Source of the DNA: Pyrinomonadaceae bacterium
Lineage (GTDB): Bacteria > Acidobacteriota > Blastocatellia > Pyrinomonadales > Pyrinomonadaceae
Direction: 5' to 3'
NCBI GenBank assembly: GCA_017983495.1
Contig: JAGOBH010000007.1
Span: forward strand, 123,278-187,277
DNA length: 64,000 nucleotides
A model generated the notes under the pieces. It saw only the letters and a list, made by a program, of their open reading frames with translations. It did not search any database and was not told where the DNA came from. Shown here piece after piece: positions 4,087-14,542 of the stretch. The position numbers and the translations under genes are program-made. How positions within the stretch are numbered: the stretch's first letter is position 1; every line of letters starts with the position of its first letter.

Positions 4087-4572
4087 TTATGAGTTTATCG
4101 AGCGAAACTGCGAATGATCCTGATCGATTGGGTAATTCGGGTCGTGCGAACGCGTCAGCGTCGAGATGGTCTCGTTATGCGCATAAATGGCCCGGCGTTT
4201 GCCCAGGAGTCGTTTGACCGCAAAGCAGAAAATGTCGAGGTCGTCGGGTTTTGAGAGAAACTCGTTGGCTCCGGCCGCGGCAGCCTTTTCGCGGTCGATG
4301 AGGCGGTTCATTGCGGTAAAGATCATGATCGGGACCGTGTAACCGATCTGCCGCATCAGGTAACAGAGCTGTACGCCTGTCATGTCGGGGAGAGCGTAGT
4401 CAATGACACATAGGTCGAACGCGTCGCGGTAGAGCACCTTAAGAGCCCTACGACCGCCTTCGACCGAGGTCACCGAAATCGTCGGATGGATCGGACGCAA
4501 CTGGTTTTCGATCCATTCGCCGGTCGTCTGGTCGCTGTCGATACAGAGTATTTTTGGTTGTGATGCACTCAT
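4087..4572 (-). CDS. Single-domain response regulator
   Basis: A 161-residue receiver domain with little else. Asp12 and Asp14 (CIDSDQ) form the acidic pocket, Asp58 (CVIDYALPD) is the phosphoacceptor, Thr86 is the switch residue, and Lys108 (SKPDD) completes the active site. A tail of about 35 residues after the receiver fold is polar and contains no DNA-binding domain. No histidine kinase is adjacent; the PAS proteins at 965-2112 are the nearest sensor-like genes. It lies 23 bp after a small membrane-protein gene on the same strand, so both probably share the promoter region near 4872. Confidence 0.85.
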   Translation of the reverse strand: MSASQPKILCIDSDQTTGEWIENQLRPIHPTISVTSVEGGRRALKVLYRDAFDLCVIDYALPDMTGVQLCYLMRQIGYTVPIMIFTAMNRLIDREKAAAAGANEFLSKPDDLDIFCFAVKRLLGKRRAIYAHNETISTLTRSHDPNYPIDQDHSQFRSINS

Positions 4573-4595
4573 TGTTATCTCATACTAAGTACAGG

Positions 4596-4805
4596 TCACT
4601 TGACGTTGGCATTTTGTGCATCGACAGGCGCTCCGACGTTCCCGTCACTTGCCGACGTCCAAAAGAAGATAAAAAATATCAGCATCATCAGCGAGAGCCC
4701 GATCGCCGCTGTCGCGACGCCCCAGACAACAAACCTGTATGCCTTTGCGGTATCTTCGCGGACGACCCGTTCCTCCCCATCAACTGTGATAACATCTTTA
4801 GCCAT
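4596..4805 (-). CDS. Small single-TM protein
   Basis: A 69-residue protein with a charged N-terminus (1-24), one transmembrane helix (about 27-50, rich in Phe, Ile and Leu) and a short polar tail. I do not recognise the family. It precedes the response regulator by 23 bp on the same strand and is probably cotranscribed. The operator palindrome at 4872-4885 lies 66 bp upstream of its start and could serve both this gene and the divergent CRP/FNR gene. A plus-strand frame of similar length overlaps it but has no family features. Confidence 0.65.
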   Translation of the reverse strand: MAKDVITVDGEERVVREDTAKAYRFVVWGVATAAIGLSLMMLIFFIFFWTSASDGNVGAPVDAQNANVK

Positions 4806-4871
4806 ATAGTCGTAACTTATCCGTATTTGAATTTATTGTCTTTATCTTATGAGCGTGAGCTCTGAATGTAT

Positions 4872-4885
4872 GTGCGGTATCGCAC
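4872..4885. promoter_or_regulatory. CRP/FNR-type palindrome, copy 5
   Basis: GTGCGGTATCGCAC has perfect 6-bp arms around two bases (GTGCGG/TATCGCAC with G-T breaks at the core) and perfect GTGCG/CGCAC half-sites. It sits between divergent genes (4805 on minus, 4994 on plus). TATGCT at 4905-4910 is centred 29 bp from its centre, the geometry of a class II activator site at about -41.5. Confidence 0.6.
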
Positions 4886-4993
4886 CCATTTGATATTTAT
4901 GTGATATGCTTTGAGTACACTGATCGCCAATTCTTTCAACTTTAGGATCGAGACGATCGAAGACAATTGATCTTCACGGGTGATGCTATTGCG

Positions 4994-5731
4994 ATGCCCA
5001 AGAAAGACACCACCGACGAAGCCCTACTGAACCAACTGCTTGCCGCATTGCCGGAGAGCGAATACCTGAAAATACGTCCCTCACTCGAACGCGTCGAACT
5101 TGAACGCGGCCAGGTCTTGTGGGAAGCTGAGGAACTAAACCAACACATCTATTTTCCTGCGACTGCGATGATCTGCATGCTTTACGAAACGGTAAGCGGC
5201 CAGTCGATCGAGGTAGGTATGATCGGGCGCAACGGTTTGGTAGGTATTGCGACGTTTATGGGAGACGCCGATCTGCTTCACCGGGTCGTGGTAGAACGCT
5301 CGGGCTCGGCGTTCCGGATGAAGGGCTCCGACGCCCTGGAGGAGTTTTCAGAAAGCGGCGATTTTCAGGACATCCTGATGTGTTATACCCAGTCGCTGAT
5401 CACCCAGATCTCACAAACCGCTGTCTGTAATCAACTGCACTCTGTCGACCAGCAACTATGCCGATGGCTGCTGATGAACCATGATCATCAGCAGACGAGC
5501 GTGTTTTTGATGACTCACGACCAGATCGCCAGCCTTTTAGGCGTCAGGCGCGAGAGCGTCTCGCTGGCGGCGTCACATCTACAGGATCGCGGCCTGATCA
5601 AATGTACGCGCGGCAAGATCGAACTCGTCGACCGCGACGGCCTGGAAGCCTCAAGCTGTGAGTGCTACGGCATTGTAAAAATGCAGTACGACCGAATGCT
5701 AAGCAAATACATCAAGGCCCACGGCGATTAG
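4994..5731 (+). CDS. CRP/FNR-family transcription regulator 2
   Basis: A 245-residue paralogue of the regulator at 2740. It has a beta-roll sensor domain (about 20-110), a dimer helix with QISQTAVCNQLH, and a winged helix with recognition segment LGVRRESVSLAA (182-193). The C-terminal CECY motif is at 222-225. ATG 4994 is used rather than an upstream TTG because it aligns with the paralogues. No canonical cAMP-binding residues or FNR cysteine cluster are apparent. Another paralogue follows 80 bp downstream on the same strand and is probably cotranscribed. Operator copy 5 is 108 bp upstream. Confidence 0.87.
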   Translation: MPKKDTTDEALLNQLLAALPESEYLKIRPSLERVELERGQVLWEAEELNQHIYFPATAMICMLYETVSGQSIEVGMIGRNGLVGIATFMGDADLLHRVVVERSGSAFRMKGSDALEEFSESGDFQDILMCYTQSLITQISQTAVCNQLHSVDQQLCRWLLMNHDHQQTSVFLMTHDQIASLLGVRRESVSLAASHLQDRGLIKCTRGKIELVDRDGLEASSCECYGIVKMQYDRMLSKYIKAHGD

Positions 5732-5811
5732 AACGACGGGCAACCCTTCGTTAAGAAAATTGACACTAAGTCCTAGAAATATGCGGAGGCCGGTCGCCGG
5801 CCGGAAGAAAT

Positions 5812-6576
5812 ATGCTCAAAAAGCCAGGAAAAAGCAGATCGCCGGTTGACGACAGCAAGGCCGACGCCCTTCGCAATAATCTCCTTTCGGCTCTCCCGAA
5901 AAGCGAATTCGGCTACATACACCCAAAACTCGAGCTGGTCGACCTCAAAATGGATGACGTCCTTTGGGAAATGGAAGAAAAACGTGAGTACGTCTATTTT
6001 CCGACCACCGCGATGATCTGTCTGCTGTACGAGACCGAAGAAGGTGTATCTGTCGAGGTTGGTATGACGGGAAGTCAGGGCATGGTCGGCGTGGTGGCGT
6101 TCGTCGGCGACGCCCGAATGGCAAAACGGGCGGTCGTGCAATCGCCCGGCCGGGCTTATCGGATGAAAGCGAAAGCAGTCGAGGCCGAATTTGCCCGCAA
6201 CCCCGCGTTTCAGGACATCTGCATGTGTTATACGCAGACGCTGATCGCTCAGATCTCGCAGAGTGCCATCTGTAACCGGCTTCATACGATCCAGCAGCAA
6301 TTATGCCGCTACTTGCTCGTCAACCACGATAATCTGCGAACCAAAACTCTGCAAATGACGCATGAGCAGATCTCAAATGTGCTCGGGGTGCGTCGCGAGA
6401 GCGTCTCAGCCGCTGCGTCCGAACTTCGCGATGCCGGGCTGATCGAGACATCGCGCGGAAAGATCAAGCTCGTCGATATAAGAGGTCTCGAGACCACCGC
6501 TTGCGAGTGTTATACCGTAGTTCGCGAACAATACGACCGCATACTTAGTAAGTACCTCAAATCACACCGTTCTTAA
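5812..6576 (+). CDS. CRP/FNR-family transcription regulator 3
   Basis: A 254-residue regulator very similar in layout to the one just upstream: a beta-roll, the motif QISQSAICNRLH in the dimer helix, recognition segment LGVRRESVSAAA, and a C-terminal CECY. The last 15 residues (YDRILSKYLKSH) also match the tail of regulator 2, so this pair looks like a tandem duplication while regulator 1 is more distant. The 80-bp gap upstream has no operator copy, so it probably depends on the promoter of regulator 2. The ligand is unknown. Confidence 0.87.
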   Translation: MLKKPGKSRSPVDDSKADALRNNLLSALPKSEFGYIHPKLELVDLKMDDVLWEMEEKREYVYFPTTAMICLLYETEEGVSVEVGMTGSQGMVGVVAFVGDARMAKRAVVQSPGRAYRMKAKAVEAEFARNPAFQDICMCYTQTLIAQISQSAICNRLHTIQQQLCRYLLVNHDNLRTKTLQMTHEQISNVLGVRRESVSAAASELRDAGLIETSRGKIKLVDIRGLETTACECYTVVREQYDRILSKYLKSHRS

Positions 6577-9359: not shown

Positions 9360-12080
9360 CTAGTTGACGATCGCGTCAAATGCACCGCGAATTGCAATGC
9401 GGACGAGGGTAAGTTGTTCCAGCAGGTCGGCGGGCGATGTCAGGTCCATACGTTCCGCGATCATCGCAAGAGCGGCCTGATTTCCGGTCGAAAGCCTTGT
9501 GGTGCGGCCGATCGTAAGCCGGATATTGTGGTCGAGTCTCGAAAGAAACGCATAGCCTTCGCGAAGGGCACCAAGGTGCGAATCATCCGGTAACTTCTCG
9601 ATCAAACGGTCGAGCATCGCAATAGTCGACCGGTCGTCATTGCGGGTAACAGATTCGCCGTCAGGAATATTGTGCCTGAGCTGCAAAAAACGCATCGCAA
9701 AATACACATCGAGCATTCCGCCGTAGCCATATTTGATGTCGACGTCCGTACCGCGACGCAGACGGGCACGCTGTGTTTGGAGAGCAAGACGAACGCGGCG
9801 GGTTTCGGCGGCGAGTTCTGAGGCGTCGATCGCAGCGGCCCGTTCGTGAATGATCCGGCGGGTTTCACTTTCGACGGACCCCGCAAGTGCCAGATCTCCG
9901 CCGACCGCTCGCAGCTTGACGAACGCAAGCATCTCCCACGCCGCGGCGTGCTCACGCATATAGGCAAGGAACATCTCCCGAGACGTAGCACTCATGCCTT
10001 TCGAACCGTATGGACGCAGTCGAAGGTCGACACGGTACAAGTTGCCGTCGCGGGTCATCGACGAGACGGCCGTGACGAATAGTTCGACGGCACGGCTGTA
10101 AAACTCGGAGGAATTGACGCCATCGCCAAGCGGCTGAGCGTCGTCGTAAACCATTATCAGATCGAGGTCCGAGTCGTAGTCGAGCCCGCGCCCACCGAGT
10201 TTTCCGAGAGCGAGCATGGCAAGGTGGAGCCCTTTGTCAGCCGAGCGGTAACGCAGGGCGAGTTCGTCACGTACCGCGTCGAGAGCCGCCGCGATCGTAG
10301 CTTCGGCAAGTGAAGTCTGCAGGCGTTTTGCTTCGGCGATCGTAATTGTTTCGAATACATCGCGAACGACGATCGCGAGCAAAAGACGCGACCACGTCTG
10401 ACGCATCGACGATATCCGAGTCCCAAATCCGCCCGGCGTTCGGGCCGCGGCCAGCATCGCCGTATGATAGTCGGGTTCGGGCTGAACAACGTGCGGATCG
10501 GGTAGGCCGGCCGCAAGCTGTGGATTTGCGGCAAGCATTGCGGCAAAATGCGGCGACACGTGCGAAAGCCTTTCAAGCACGGTCAACTCGGCGTCGGTCG
10601 CAGTAAATTCGACGTCCGATTTTTCGATCGACGCCATGACATGCGAACGTGTGCGTTCGGCGGCATTCGGCACCGAGGTCGAGTGGATCGAGTATGCGGG
10701 GTCGGCTGCTTCGCCAAAGACGCGGGCAAAGACGCGTGCGACATTTTCCGTATGTAGATTCAGATCTGCCTCAAAATCACCGCCCGACGCAAATGTGACG
10801 CGGCTCGCAAGCAACTGACGCTTTTCCGCATCGTCCGGGACAGTATGCGTCTGAATGCCGTTCTCCATCTGTAGGACGTGTTCGGTGCGGCGAAGAAATT
10901 CATAGGCGGCGGACAGTTCGGAGAGTTCGGTGTCGCTCAGATGGCGTCTGTCAGCAAGCCGCGTCAGACTGATCAATGTGTGAGGACTGCGGAGCCAGCG
11001 ATCGTCGCCGCCGTGGGCAAGCTGCAAGGCCTGTGCGAGAAACTCGATCTCGCGAATGCCGCCGCGGCCGAGTTTGACGTTAAATCCGCGCCGATCGGTC
11101 TGCTCGCGGTCGATCTTTTCTTTAGACAGCCGGACGTTTGCCAGTGCCTCTTCGACCGTTTCGTCCGATTCAAAGACGAGCGGCTCGACCTCGGCGAAAA
11201 ACTCTTTGAAAAGCTCGGTGTCACCCGCACATCCGCGTGAGCGGATCAGCACCTGGCGTTCCCACGGCCGAGCCTCTGTGCGATGATATCGGACAGTGTC
11301 GGCAACGGACATCGCGAGAGCACCCATCGAACCGTGCGGCCGCAGACGGAGATCGACGCGGTAAGCCGCACCTTCGCCGGTTTGCTGGCCGACGAGTTTG
11401 GACGTAAATTCGGCAAGCTTTACGAAATATTCGCGGTTTGTCACCGATCCGCGACTGCCGCTGCCGGATGTCATCCCGTCATTCGAATAAAAGAATATCA
11501 GATCGATATCCGACGAATAATTGAGCTCGCGGGAGCCGAGCTTGCCGAGCGCGGTGATGCAAAAGCGTGCGGGACGGAGTCGGCCTTTTTCGTCCGTCTC
11601 CTGAGGCTGGCCAAACCGGTTATCGATCTCGCGGCGGGCGTGCTTGAGCGCCGATTCGAGGATCGCGTCGGCGAGATGCGATATTTCCTCGGTGATCTCA
11701 GCGATGGTCGCGAGCCGTCTGATGTCACGCAGATAAATACGGAGAAGTTCGCGGCGTCGAAACCGGGCGAATAGCACCTGCGGTTCGAGCTGCGAATGGG
11801 TCATCGAAAAGCGAGCGAGCGATTCGAGCAGTTCTTCTTTTCCTCGAACGCTGCTGTCTCGCCGCTTTCGGCCGAGCCACCACAAATATTCGGGATTCTG
11901 AAGCAAGGTCGTCGCCAGTAGCGGTGAGAACGCCGCAAGAGTGAGCACGTCCGACAAGAGACCTTCGTCGCGGCCGAGTTTTACGGCAGCCGCAGCATGC
12001 TTTTCGGCAAGCTGTTCGAGAAACCGACGTGCTCCGGCCGGGTCGGGCAAGCCGCTGATCAAATGTTCGTCAATGTTCAT
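9360..12080 (-). CDS. glnE: Glutamine synthetase adenylyltransferase/adenylyl-removing enzyme
   Basis: A 906-residue bifunctional enzyme that adenylylates and de-adenylylates glutamine synthetase according to nitrogen status, normally in response to PII. Two nucleotidyltransferase domains are clear: GSRELNYSSDIDL (182-194) in the adenylyl-removing half and GGRGLDYDSDLDL (629-641) in the adenylylating half, each with the DxD metal ligands. GRGGIREIEFLAQ (339-351) is the conserved motif between them. The length fits the family (about 950). Its ATG overlaps the stop codon of the upstream AAA+ regulator as ATGA, so the two are translationally coupled, which points to a nitrogen role for that regulator. 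No glutamine synthetase or PII gene lies in this window. Confidence 0.93.
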   Translation of the reverse strand: MNIDEHLISGLPDPAGARRFLEQLAEKHAAAAVKLGRDEGLLSDVLTLAAFSPLLATTLLQNPEYLWWLGRKRRDSSVRGKEELLESLARFSMTHSQLEPQVLFARFRRRELLRIYLRDIRRLATIAEITEEISHLADAILESALKHARREIDNRFGQPQETDEKGRLRPARFCITALGKLGSRELNYSSDIDLIFFYSNDGMTSGSGSRGSVTNREYFVKLAEFTSKLVGQQTGEGAAYRVDLRLRPHGSMGALAMSVADTVRYHRTEARPWERQVLIRSRGCAGDTELFKEFFAEVEPLVFESDETVEEALANVRLSKEKIDREQTDRRGFNVKLGRGGIREIEFLAQALQLAHGGDDRWLRSPHTLISLTRLADRRHLSDTELSELSAAYEFLRRTEHVLQMENGIQTHTVPDDAEKRQLLASRVTFASGGDFEADLNLHTENVARVFARVFGEAADPAYSIHSTSVPNAAERTRSHVMASIEKSDVEFTATDAELTVLERLSHVSPHFAAMLAANPQLAAGLPDPHVVQPEPDYHTAMLAAARTPGGFGTRISSMRQTWSRLLLAIVVRDVFETITIAEAKRLQTSLAEATIAAALDAVRDELALRYRSADKGLHLAMLALGKLGGRGLDYDSDLDLIMVYDDAQPLGDGVNSSEFYSRAVELFVTAVSSMTRDGNLYRVDLRLRPYGSKGMSATSREMFLAYMREHAAAWEMLAFVKLRAVGGDLALAGSVESETRRIIHERAAAIDASELAAETRRVRLALQTQRARLRRGTDVDIKYGYGGMLDVYFAMRFLQLRHNIPDGESVTRNDDRSTIAMLDRLIEKLPDDSHLGALREGYAFLSRLDHNIRLTIGRTTRLSTGNQAALAMIAERMDLTSPADLLEQLTLVRIAIRGAFDAIVN

Positions 12081-13573
12081 CCTCGGAAGCGTTTCGGGTC
12101 GATACCGTAATTCTTTATCTTATAGCCTAATATCCGCTCGGTCGAATCAAGCATTTTCGCGGCTCGTGCGATGTTCCCGCGCGTCGATTTAAGCGTGTCC
12201 TGGATCAGGTCGCTCTCAAACGCCTCGACGGCAGAGGCGAGCGTGATACGCGTTTCGGTTCCACTGTTTTCAGCTGTTTGCAGCGTCGGCGGCAAATGAT
12301 GCCCATGAATGACGTTGGAATCGCAAACAAGCACGGCGTGTTCGATAACATTCTCGAGTTCGCGGACATTGCCGGGAAAATGATACGCCGTCAGCATGTC
12401 GATCGCGGGCGTCGAAATGCGGCGGACCCGCTTGCCGTGCTCGCGTTCGTATTTTTCGACAAAATGCTCGGCCAGAAGCAGAATGTCCGATTTGCGTTCG
12501 CGAAGCGGCGGCAGACTGATGGTGAAGGCGTTCAGCCGGTAAAAGAGATCCTCGCGAAACGACGAGGCCGCGATCTCGTCCTCAAGCCGCATCCCAGATG
12601 CTGTGATAAGGCGGATATTGACCCGAACAGTCTCAGAGCCGTCTGCACGCTCGATCTCGCTCGACTCAATGACGCGGAGCAGTTTCGCCTGTGCCGTCAG
12701 AGGAAGATCGCCGACCTCATCGATGTAGAGCGTGCCGCCATCCGCCTGTTCGATACGCCCTTTTCGAGGCTTGCCGGCGACCATCTCGCCGCCGAATAAC
12801 TCACGTTCGACCGTGGCATCGGGAAGTGCGGAGCAACTAACCTTTACGAACGGCCGTTTTGAACGCAGGCTGTTGTAATGGATGGCATTCGCGATCAACT
12901 CCTTGCCGGTGCCGCCCTCGCCGCGAAGCAGGACTGTTGCGTTCGAACGCGCAACCTGTTCGGCAAGTCCGTAAACCTGACGCATCTGACTCGAATTGCC
13001 GACAAGACGGTGAAATTCGTACTTGGTCTTAAGTTCCTGTTTGAGCAGGGTGTTTTCCTCGGCAAGCTTCCGGCTCTCTTCGGAAACGGTCTGTTCGATA
13101 CGCATCGCTTGAGCAATGAGTGCCGCAATTACCCTGAGTAGCTTTATCGTCTCGTTCTCGGAGGCCGGCGACGAGGCGGGAAAGGCGACAGCAAGCATTC
13201 CGACGCCAACCGATCTGACGACGAGCGGCACTGCAATAAGTGCTTGGGCTCCGGTACCGAAGGAAAGAAAATTCAGGACACGATCCTGACCGAGTTCGTC
13301 GATGACGAAAGGCGAGACGATATGGTTGATCTTCCAGAGATTGCTCTTGGCGATCCGCTCCTCAAGTCGCCGAAAATCCGCGGCCCCGAGGCCGCTGGCG
13401 GCAATGATCTCAGCAACATCACTGTCACGCCGGCGTCGAACCACAAATGCGAACCGACCCCCAAGTACGCGATTGAGATTCTCCACGACCGAAGCCGATC
13501 CGGCACGGATGCCTTCAGCGTCGCCCAACGACGCTGCCGCACGGGCGATAAACTCAATTCGATCAAACTTCAT
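12077..13573 (-). CDS. NifA/NtrC-type AAA+ regulator lacking GAFTGA
   Basis: A 498-residue protein with an N-terminal GAF domain (about 20-165), a AAA+ core and a C-terminal Fis-type helix-turn-helix (about 450-498, ending LGYKIKNYGI as in NifA). Walker A is GEGGTGKE (218-225), Walker B GGTLYIDEVGD (279-289), and the arginine-finger region FREDLFYRLN is present. The sigma-54 contact loop is abnormal: after ELFG (258-261) the usual HEKGAFTGA is replaced by GEMVAGKP, about four residues shorter. It may therefore not activate sigma-54 polymerase and could work with sigma-70, as TyrR does. ATG 13573 is preferred over a TTG three codons earlier. It is coupled to glnE. Confidence 0.88.
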   Translation of the reverse strand: MKFDRIEFIARAAASLGDAEGIRAGSASVVENLNRVLGGRFAFVVRRRRDSDVAEIIAASGLGAADFRRLEERIAKSNLWKINHIVSPFVIDELGQDRVLNFLSFGTGAQALIAVPLVVRSVGVGMLAVAFPASSPASENETIKLLRVIAALIAQAMRIEQTVSEESRKLAEENTLLKQELKTKYEFHRLVGNSSQMRQVYGLAEQVARSNATVLLRGEGGTGKELIANAIHYNSLRSKRPFVKVSCSALPDATVERELFGGEMVAGKPRKGRIEQADGGTLYIDEVGDLPLTAQAKLLRVIESSEIERADGSETVRVNIRLITASGMRLEDEIAASSFREDLFYRLNAFTISLPPLRERKSDILLLAEHFVEKYEREHGKRVRRISTPAIDMLTAYHFPGNVRELENVIEHAVLVCDSNVIHGHHLPPTLQTAENSGTETRITLASAVEAFESDLIQDTLKSTRGNIARAAKMLDSTERILGYKIKNYGIDPKRFRG

Positions 13574-13642
13574 TTCCGACAAAATTGTAGGTTATTGAGA
13601 GCGGGCGGTAAAATCGGCGGAGCGATGAGTTAGAATCAACTA

Positions 13643-14542
13643 ATGGACAGCCGCATCGAGATCAAGGCAGGGAACGAGCATTTCAAGGTGCGGCTTGACG
13701 ATTTCCTCTTCGATAAATTCAACGGACTGAGCAAGATGTATCTGCGCGAGATCGTCAAGAACGAACGCTGCGAGGTCAACGGGCGTGCCGAGAATATCGG
13801 ATATAAGCTGCGTCCAAACGACCTGATAGAAATTCACATCGATACGACCCGCGAAACCGCGATGCGGCCGGAAAATGTACCGGTCGATATCGTTTTTGAA
13901 GACGAACATTTGCTAGTTGTTAATAAGCCTGCCGGAACGCTCGTCCACCCTACGCACCGCGATAAGAGCGGTACGCTTCTCAATGCACTCGCTTACCACC
14001 TGAATCGCGGAAAGATCGAAGCTGACGTTTCCGGCATTGATACGACAGCGTTCATTCGTGCCGGGCTGATCCATCGGCTCGACAAACATACGTCCGGGCT
14101 GATGGTGGTTGCGAAAACCGCTCGAACGCACAGGATACTGGCGGATCATTTCAAGCGGAAGTTTGTCGAAAAGCGGTATCTCGCACTGGTCAATGGTGTG
14201 ATCAATGACGGTGAAGGAACGATAAACGCTCCCATCGGCCGATTCGCCGAACTGAAGTTTTGGGATATCAAGGCGGACGGTAAACATGCGGAGACGCGGT
14301 TTTGGGTCAGGGAACGGCGGGAGCGGTCAACGCTCCTGGAACTTGAGCCGGTAACGGGCCGAACAAATCAGCTCCGGATACATTGCTCGTCCATCGGACA
14401 CCCCATTGTCGGTGATGTGGACCGCGGCGGCCCTGCCCATTCACGGCTCTGTCTTCACGCGTGGAAACTCACATTTCGCCACCCGAACGGCGGCGAGCCG
14501 ATGACATTCGAAAGACCCATCGAATTTGAAGACCCTGATTAA
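13643..14542 (+). CDS. RluA/RluD-family pseudouridine synthase
   Basis: A 299-residue enzyme that converts uridine to pseudouridine in structured RNA, probably 23S rRNA. An N-terminal S4 RNA-binding domain (about 15-75) precedes the catalytic domain. HRLDKHTSGL (144-153) holds the catalytic Asp147, and KRYLALVNG and GRTNQLRIH are further family motifs. Its exact target (RluC, RluD or RluA type) cannot be decided from this sequence. It is divergent from the regulator-glnE unit, and its 3' end overlaps the convergent protease gene by 4 bp. The upstream gap is short (69 bp to the regulator start), so both promoters share it. Confidence 0.88.
   Translation: MDSRIEIKAGNEHFKVRLDDFLFDKFNGLSKMYLREIVKNERCEVNGRAENIGYKLRPNDLIEIHIDTTRETAMRPENVPVDIVFEDEHLLVVNKPAGTLVHPTHRDKSGTLLNALAYHLNRGKIEADVSGIDTTAFIRAGLIHRLDKHTSGLMVVAKTARTHRILADHFKRKFVEKRYLALVNGVINDGEGTINAPIGRFAELKFWDIKADGKHAETRFWVRERRERSTLLELEPVTGRTNQLRIHCSSIGHPIVGDVDRGGPAHSRLCLHAWKLTFRHPNGGEPMTFERPIEFEDPD

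Follow-up and report, generated by a model that had tools for sequence, protein, structure and literature searches.

How can a regulator leave sigma-54 and still keep control of a target as central as glutamine synthetase? GAFTGA-less relatives of sigma-54 activators have so far been known one by one, and the locus described here raises the question within a single genus of the Pyrinomonadaceae. The window, i.e., the whole stretch of 64,000 nucleotides that was analysed, comes from a soil-type acidobacterium and carries a regulator gene (12077..13582, minus strand) that encodes a protein of 501 aa with GAF, AAA+ and Fis-type helix-turn-helix domains, as judged from the open reading frame and Pfam domains. 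The start codon of this frame is TTG, and the ATG at codon 4 (13573) is likelier. Downstream in the same operon lies glnE, the gene for glutamine synthetase adenylyltransferase (9360..12080, minus strand), and the 4-bp overlap between the two genes noticed in a sequence-only reading of this DNA agrees with their coordinates. The divergent neighbour is a gene for an RluA-type pseudouridine synthase (13643..14542, plus strand), separated from the regulator by a 61-bp gap in the window's genome (G000).

The regulator and its missing GAFTGA loop

Residues 193-355 of the regulator match the sigma-54 activator AAA+ domain PF00158 with an E-value of 2e-51 (174.6 bits against a cut-off of 20.2), and the AAA+ lid domain is also among the Pfam matches. 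The GAF sensory domain spans residues 31-160 (13103..13492, minus strand; PF01590, E 1.7e-4, and the structure model) and the Fis-type helix-turn-helix (HTH_8) residues 452-492 (12107..12229, minus strand; Pfam and orthologue comparison). The latter had been described as intact, which agrees with the HTH_8 match and with a recognition helix, STERILGYKIK, identical to that of GAFTGA-bearing orthologues. The same description of the ATPase motifs holds only in part. Walker B (LYIDEVGD, 12707..12730, with Asp-Glu kept), both arginines of the R-fingers (FREDLFYRL, 12533..12559) and sensor II (GNVRELEN, 12350..12373), all on the minus strand, are intact. Walker A reads GEGGTGKE instead of the usual GESGTGKE (12899..12922, minus strand), so that the lysine is kept and the serine is replaced by glycine, and sensor I reads ITASG where ITATN is expected (12593..12607, minus strand), with loss of the asparagine. 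The AlphaFold model has a mean pLDDT of 86 and a normal AAA+ fold, and its best PDB fold matches are the sigma-54 activators NtrC1, FleQ, NtrX and LuxO, with VpsR (7v2b) lower. The NCBIfam top match by E-value is nifA (TIGR01817) at 363.1 bits, below the curated cut-off of 528.85; the term NifA-like is thus apt for a resemblance and not for membership in that family.

Where sigma-54 enhancer-binding proteins have the GAFTGA loop the regulator has GGEMVAGKPRKG. The L1 segment that replaces the loop, LFGGEMVAGKPRKG (12758..12799, minus strand), was delimited from an alignment of 46 orthologues, DNA comparison and the AlphaFold model, in which it forms a short beta hairpin. The same stretch in the closest relative, G034 (75% identical), is LFGYEKGAFTGASARKKG. 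Set against ELFGHEKGAFTGA of sigma-54 activators, the window's ELFGGEMVAGKPRKG (12758-12799) is four residues shorter, unrelated and in frame, and the loss of the loop to a shorter unrelated segment, the central claim of the sequence-only reading, is confirmed by the orthologue alignment and DNA comparison. GAFTGA was sought in the other frames of the loop DNA and was found in none of them, and a compensated frameshift was therefore rejected. The genome has one full rpoN, a gene that had been proposed as a check, and rpoN was found in 58 of the 60 genomes searched. All 11 other complete activator domains in the window's genome keep GAF[TS][GD]A or GSFTGA, and the GAFTDA variant occurs also in two paralogues. 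With rpoN present, the loss of the loop is specific to this regulator and does not reflect an absence of sigma-54. A literature search on GAFTGA in Acidobacteria, and on NifA with glnE there, found no paper in the collection searched.

Loop decay and selection in one genus

An orthologue of the regulator was found in 46 of 60 relatives, most of them with GAFTGA and two more with GAFTDA. Outside the window's genus the orthologues keep GAFTGA, the two with GAFTDA being G039 and G051. The genomes compared are mostly assemblies of varying completeness. A tree built from GlnE, GlnA and RluA divides the genus into two clades, A and B (rooted support 93 and 95), but does not settle how the first branches of clade B, to which G000 belongs, are ordered. 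Every regulator found in clade A has GAFTGA. In clade B just three genomes, G034, G008 and G011, have the motif intact; it is degraded to GAFDGA in G031, GVFAGA in G035 and DSFAGA in G026, and is gone through differing deletions in G000, in G004 and G033, in G007, in G028 and in the group of G002, G003, G014, G018, G022 and G023. Degraded or deleted forms are thus found in 14 genus members, all of them in clade B. In the older losses an R-finger is missing too, or else some of Walker B, and three clade B genomes (G016, G025 and G027) lack the regulator at the rluA-glnE locus. The adjacency of regulator and glnE is kept across the genus orthologues tested, whatever the loop. The regulator of G002 (L065 5713-7138) is split by a frame change, which points to a pseudogene or to an error of assembly.

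Orthologues and rooted tree together place the loss of GAFTGA after a GAFTGA-bearing ancestor. The fewest-change count gives four changes of GAFTGA state when regain is permitted, and with regain treated as implausible, the tree calls for four or more independent degradations or deletions of the motif in clade B. GAFTDA was excluded from the losses because glnA keeps its sigma-54 sites in G039 and G051.

The dN/dS ratio of the AAA+ domain is 0.007-0.026 in close pairs with GAFTGA and 0.04-0.14 in pairs without it, ratios that are rough because several synonymous distances are saturated. The GAF domain has similar ratios in both kinds of pairs, and the recognition helix is nearly unchanged across orthologues. 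Judged from these values, purifying selection on the AAA+ domain is relaxed after loss of the loop yet present, and the gene is still selected.

The predicted operator and the glnA promoter

A palindrome, CCTACA-WWWW-TGTAGG (CCTACA-N4-TGTAGG), is common to the upstream regions of regulator orthologues. The copy in the window, the predicted operator CCTACAATTTTGTCGG (13576..13591, minus strand), abuts the ATG of the regulator. The palindrome is conserved in clade B, where every orthologue locus examined has it at the same position at the regulator start; it was first spotted by eye in the same genomes and promoters that were later tallied for autoregulation, and the independent tests are the glnA, glnD, regulator-loss, spacing and control counts. 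A score of at least 17 is reached by 1.5% of 280-bp tiles, taken as background. A search of the whole G000 genome located a perfect copy upstream of glnA, and the palindrome is likewise upstream of glnA in regulator-bearing clade B genomes. It is absent from glnA of the regulator-less G016 and G027, the two of three where this was checkable. Among outgroups, the regulator is divergent from and adjoins glnA in G037 and G048, and lies just upstream of glnA in G039 and G051. Of nine relatives with glnD, eight have palindromes and a strong sigma-54 site upstream of it (L202 upstream of 3635; L204, L205, L218-L225); glnD was not detectable in the window's genus, though glnE is kept. Double palindromes at a spacing of 30-31 bp number 0-3 per genome and strand, mostly in GAFTGA genomes, with almost none in the reversed control. 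Through these separate placements the motif is linked both to the regulator and to nitrogen assimilation.

Other matches were seen. A palindrome in miaB of G000 (C2:149170) was set aside as a coding chance, since the residues TDIIVG of MiaB appear to be encoded there, and matches in recG and elsewhere also occur in this genome. An aminotransferase gene (5133-6293, plus strand) is a possible further target, with an operator-like GCTACATTTTTGTCGG about 55 bp ahead of it at L139:5064-5079 (G000 C12:5563). About 30 copies of CCGACAAGAGTGTCGG are dispersed over many contigs of G033, often in pairs; they look like a short repeat element and were rejected as operators. The outgroup G037 (L199 3581) has a double operator and a sigma-54 site, TGGCACAGGGCTTGC, before a gene for a zinc-ribbon protein (4222-5508), which may be a member of the regulon.

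The glnA promoter differs in type between the clades. Outgroups and clade A have two operators 30-31 bp apart together with a -24/-12 sequence, which lies 90-92, 100-102 or 113 bp from the nearer operator, i.e., in steps of about one helical turn. Such a sigma-54 promoter precedes glnA in each of the 12 clade A genomes examined and in four of five outgroups. None of 18 clade B genomes has a convincing sigma-54 site at glnA, and in G000 neither glnA nor the regulator-glnE operon has a -24/-12 promoter, and the whole genome has no double operator. Clade B glnA has instead a single, usually near-perfect, operator, and in all 13 representatives a TATAAT-like hexamer, the predicted -10 of a sigma-70-type promoter, starts 66-69 bp from the operator centre. 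Its distance to the start codon is less constant, at 69-84 bp. At the fixed spacing the hexamers score 4.41 on average, against a best-anywhere mean of 3.27 in shuffles (sd 0.12, maximum 3.90), and none of 1000 shuffles reaches it. With spacers between operator and hexamer just 30% identical between representatives, shared sequence alone does not account for the fixed spacing. No such hexamer peak is seen at clade A glnA. The hexamers are variable (TAGGAT, TAAACT) and the -35 boxes mostly weak; in G000 a fair -35, TTGACG, accompanies TAAAAT. A sigma-70-type glnA promoter occurs together with intact GAFTGA in G034, G008 and G011, which implies that the promoter switch preceded the change in the protein. 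In these three species the intact motif suggests that a remnant of sigma-54 function may persist elsewhere.

The regulator's own upstream region has changed as well. Genomes with GAFTGA have at least 129 bp between rluA and the regulator, and lineages with a deleted loop 55-83 bp. Within clade B the distal copies of the operator, at about -100 to -150, are confined to genomes with GAFTGA or a motif close to it (G034, G008, G011 and G035), and in the deleted-loop lineages only the copy at the start codon remains. This site lies over the leader, possibly over a -10-like TACAAT, which suggests autorepression. Activation of the operon by its own product through sigma-54 was rejected, with no convincing -24/-12 in the rluA-regulator gap of the genus members examined. 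A genome-wide count of TGGCAY-N5-TTGCW was dropped as evidence, being hardly above its reversed control.

Proposed mechanism, alternatives and known systems

The sequences give the loss of the loop, the conservation and positions of the operator, the difference in promoter type, the order of events on the tree and continued selection; from these we infer that the regulator binds the palindrome, that its effect at glnA is activation and not repression, that it represses its own operon, and what its ligand may be. The ancestor would have been a sigma-54 enhancer-binding activator of the glutamine synthetase gene glnA. The glnA promoter would then have passed from the sigma-54 type to the sigma-70 type in one clade of the genus, and with glnA no longer in need of sigma-54 remodelling, the GAFTGA loop could decay, the window's species included. 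The regulator, as a dimer or small oligomer, would now bind one 16-bp palindrome. Upstream of glnA, with the site centred about -80 from the inferred start site, it would activate the housekeeping RNA polymerase. A site centre near -80 is typical of activators that touch the alpha subunit of polymerase. Binding of the palindrome over its own leader would repress the regulator-glnE operon, and the GAF domain may sense the nitrogen or carbon state. We consider it probable that the protein is a sigma-54-independent nitrogen regulator of this promoter-first origin that acts on glnA as an activator, with the housekeeping polymerase, and on its own glnE operon as a repressor. The promoter switch, the loss of the loop, the continued selection and the unchanged helix make a sigma-54-independent regulator the most likely reading for the window's species, and the earlier suggestion of such control over nitrogen genes gains support from the comparison of operators and glnA promoter types, and from the presence of rpoN, the nitrogen target being seen at glnA in addition to glnE.

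The regulator could also be a repressor only, a single palindrome serving to repress the glnE operon and, by roadblock or looping, glnA, whose sigma-70 promoter would otherwise be constitutive. The operator does abut the regulator's start codon throughout clade B, a fair -35 is present in some glnA promoters, that of G000 among them, and glnA is kept in the regulator-less G016 and G027. This is possible but rather doubtful, as the operator at glnA lies about 60 bp upstream of the -10 at fixed spacing, clear of the core promoter, and weak -35 boxes, a trait of activated promoters, are frequent. It is unlikely that the changed regulator is simply decaying on its way to being lost, with no important function in the loss lineages. 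The three regulator-less genomes of the same clade, the several-fold weaker AAA+ constraint after loss and the broken frame in G002 would fit such decay, but dN/dS is well below 1 in every domain, nearly all other changed-loop genomes have open frames (G002 apart), and a near-perfect operator persists at two places despite diverged flanks.

Continued activation of sigma-54 promoters, through hetero-oligomers or a changed loop, would be in keeping with rpoN and with the Walker A lysine, Walker B, R-fingers and sensor II retained in G000. It is nevertheless very improbable given that GAFTGA and the sensor I asparagine are gone, that neither glnA nor the regulator's own gene has a sigma-54 promoter and that the genome has no double operator. 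Hardly credible is an assembly or sequencing error at the loop. The exact loop of the window was seen in one genome of the set only, and most orthologues do have GAFTGA, which had been foreseen as the mark of a local error, but 14 genus members are changed. The change in G000 is moreover in frame with intact flanks and no hidden GAFTGA, the sister G031 is already degraded to GAFDGA, and the change is coupled to the loss of sensor I and of the distal operators.

A sigma-54-independent nitrogen regulator would join the GAFTGA-less relatives of the TyrR or NtrC type, which form a functional class and not one clade. With NifA (TIGR01817; A. vinelandii NifA 9qq6) the regulator shares the layout of GAF, AAA+ and Fis-type helix-turn-helix, and differs in its operator and in its targets, glnA and glnE. 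The NifA operator is TGT-N10-ACA, as opposed to ACA-N4-TGT here. TyrR, DhaR, HupR and VpsR are related to enhancer-binding proteins but carry a deleted or substituted GAFTGA, and for the first three dependence on sigma-70 has been shown (PMC3162934). They differ from the regulator in sensory domains and targets, so that TyrR, named in the sequence-only reading, is a valid precedent, the nearest functional ones being GAFTGA-less NtrC proteins. Caulobacter crescentus has sigma-54, yet its NtrC has lost the GAFTGA part of L1 through a deletion; this NtrC is required for expression of glnBA, acts as a repressor of its own locus and regulates sigma-70 promoters (PMC10274813). As a GAFTGA-less relative of sigma-54 activators that controls glnA, it is, by analogy, the closest functional precedent for the regulator. 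It differs in having a receiver domain, a partner kinase (NtrB), another DNA motif and a deletion of separate origin, and is not known to be linked to glnE. The NtrC of Rhodobacter capsulatus, as cited there, also lacks GAFTGA and activates with sigma-70 polymerase, for which it needs ATP binding and not hydrolysis (PMC10274813); it differs as a phosphorylated response regulator of an alphaproteobacterium.

The present comparison adds a predicted nitrogen regulon (glnA, glnD and regulator-glnE) and its operator for a poorly studied acidobacterial class. As the states before, during and after the change are found for the same regulator, operator and target promoter in one genus, the order of the steps can be read. 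It is more likely than not that these genomes are living intermediates, in which the glnA promoter changed first and the loop decayed later in several lineages, some of them ending without the regulator, and this would be a general route by which proteins such as Caulobacter NtrC and TyrR arose.
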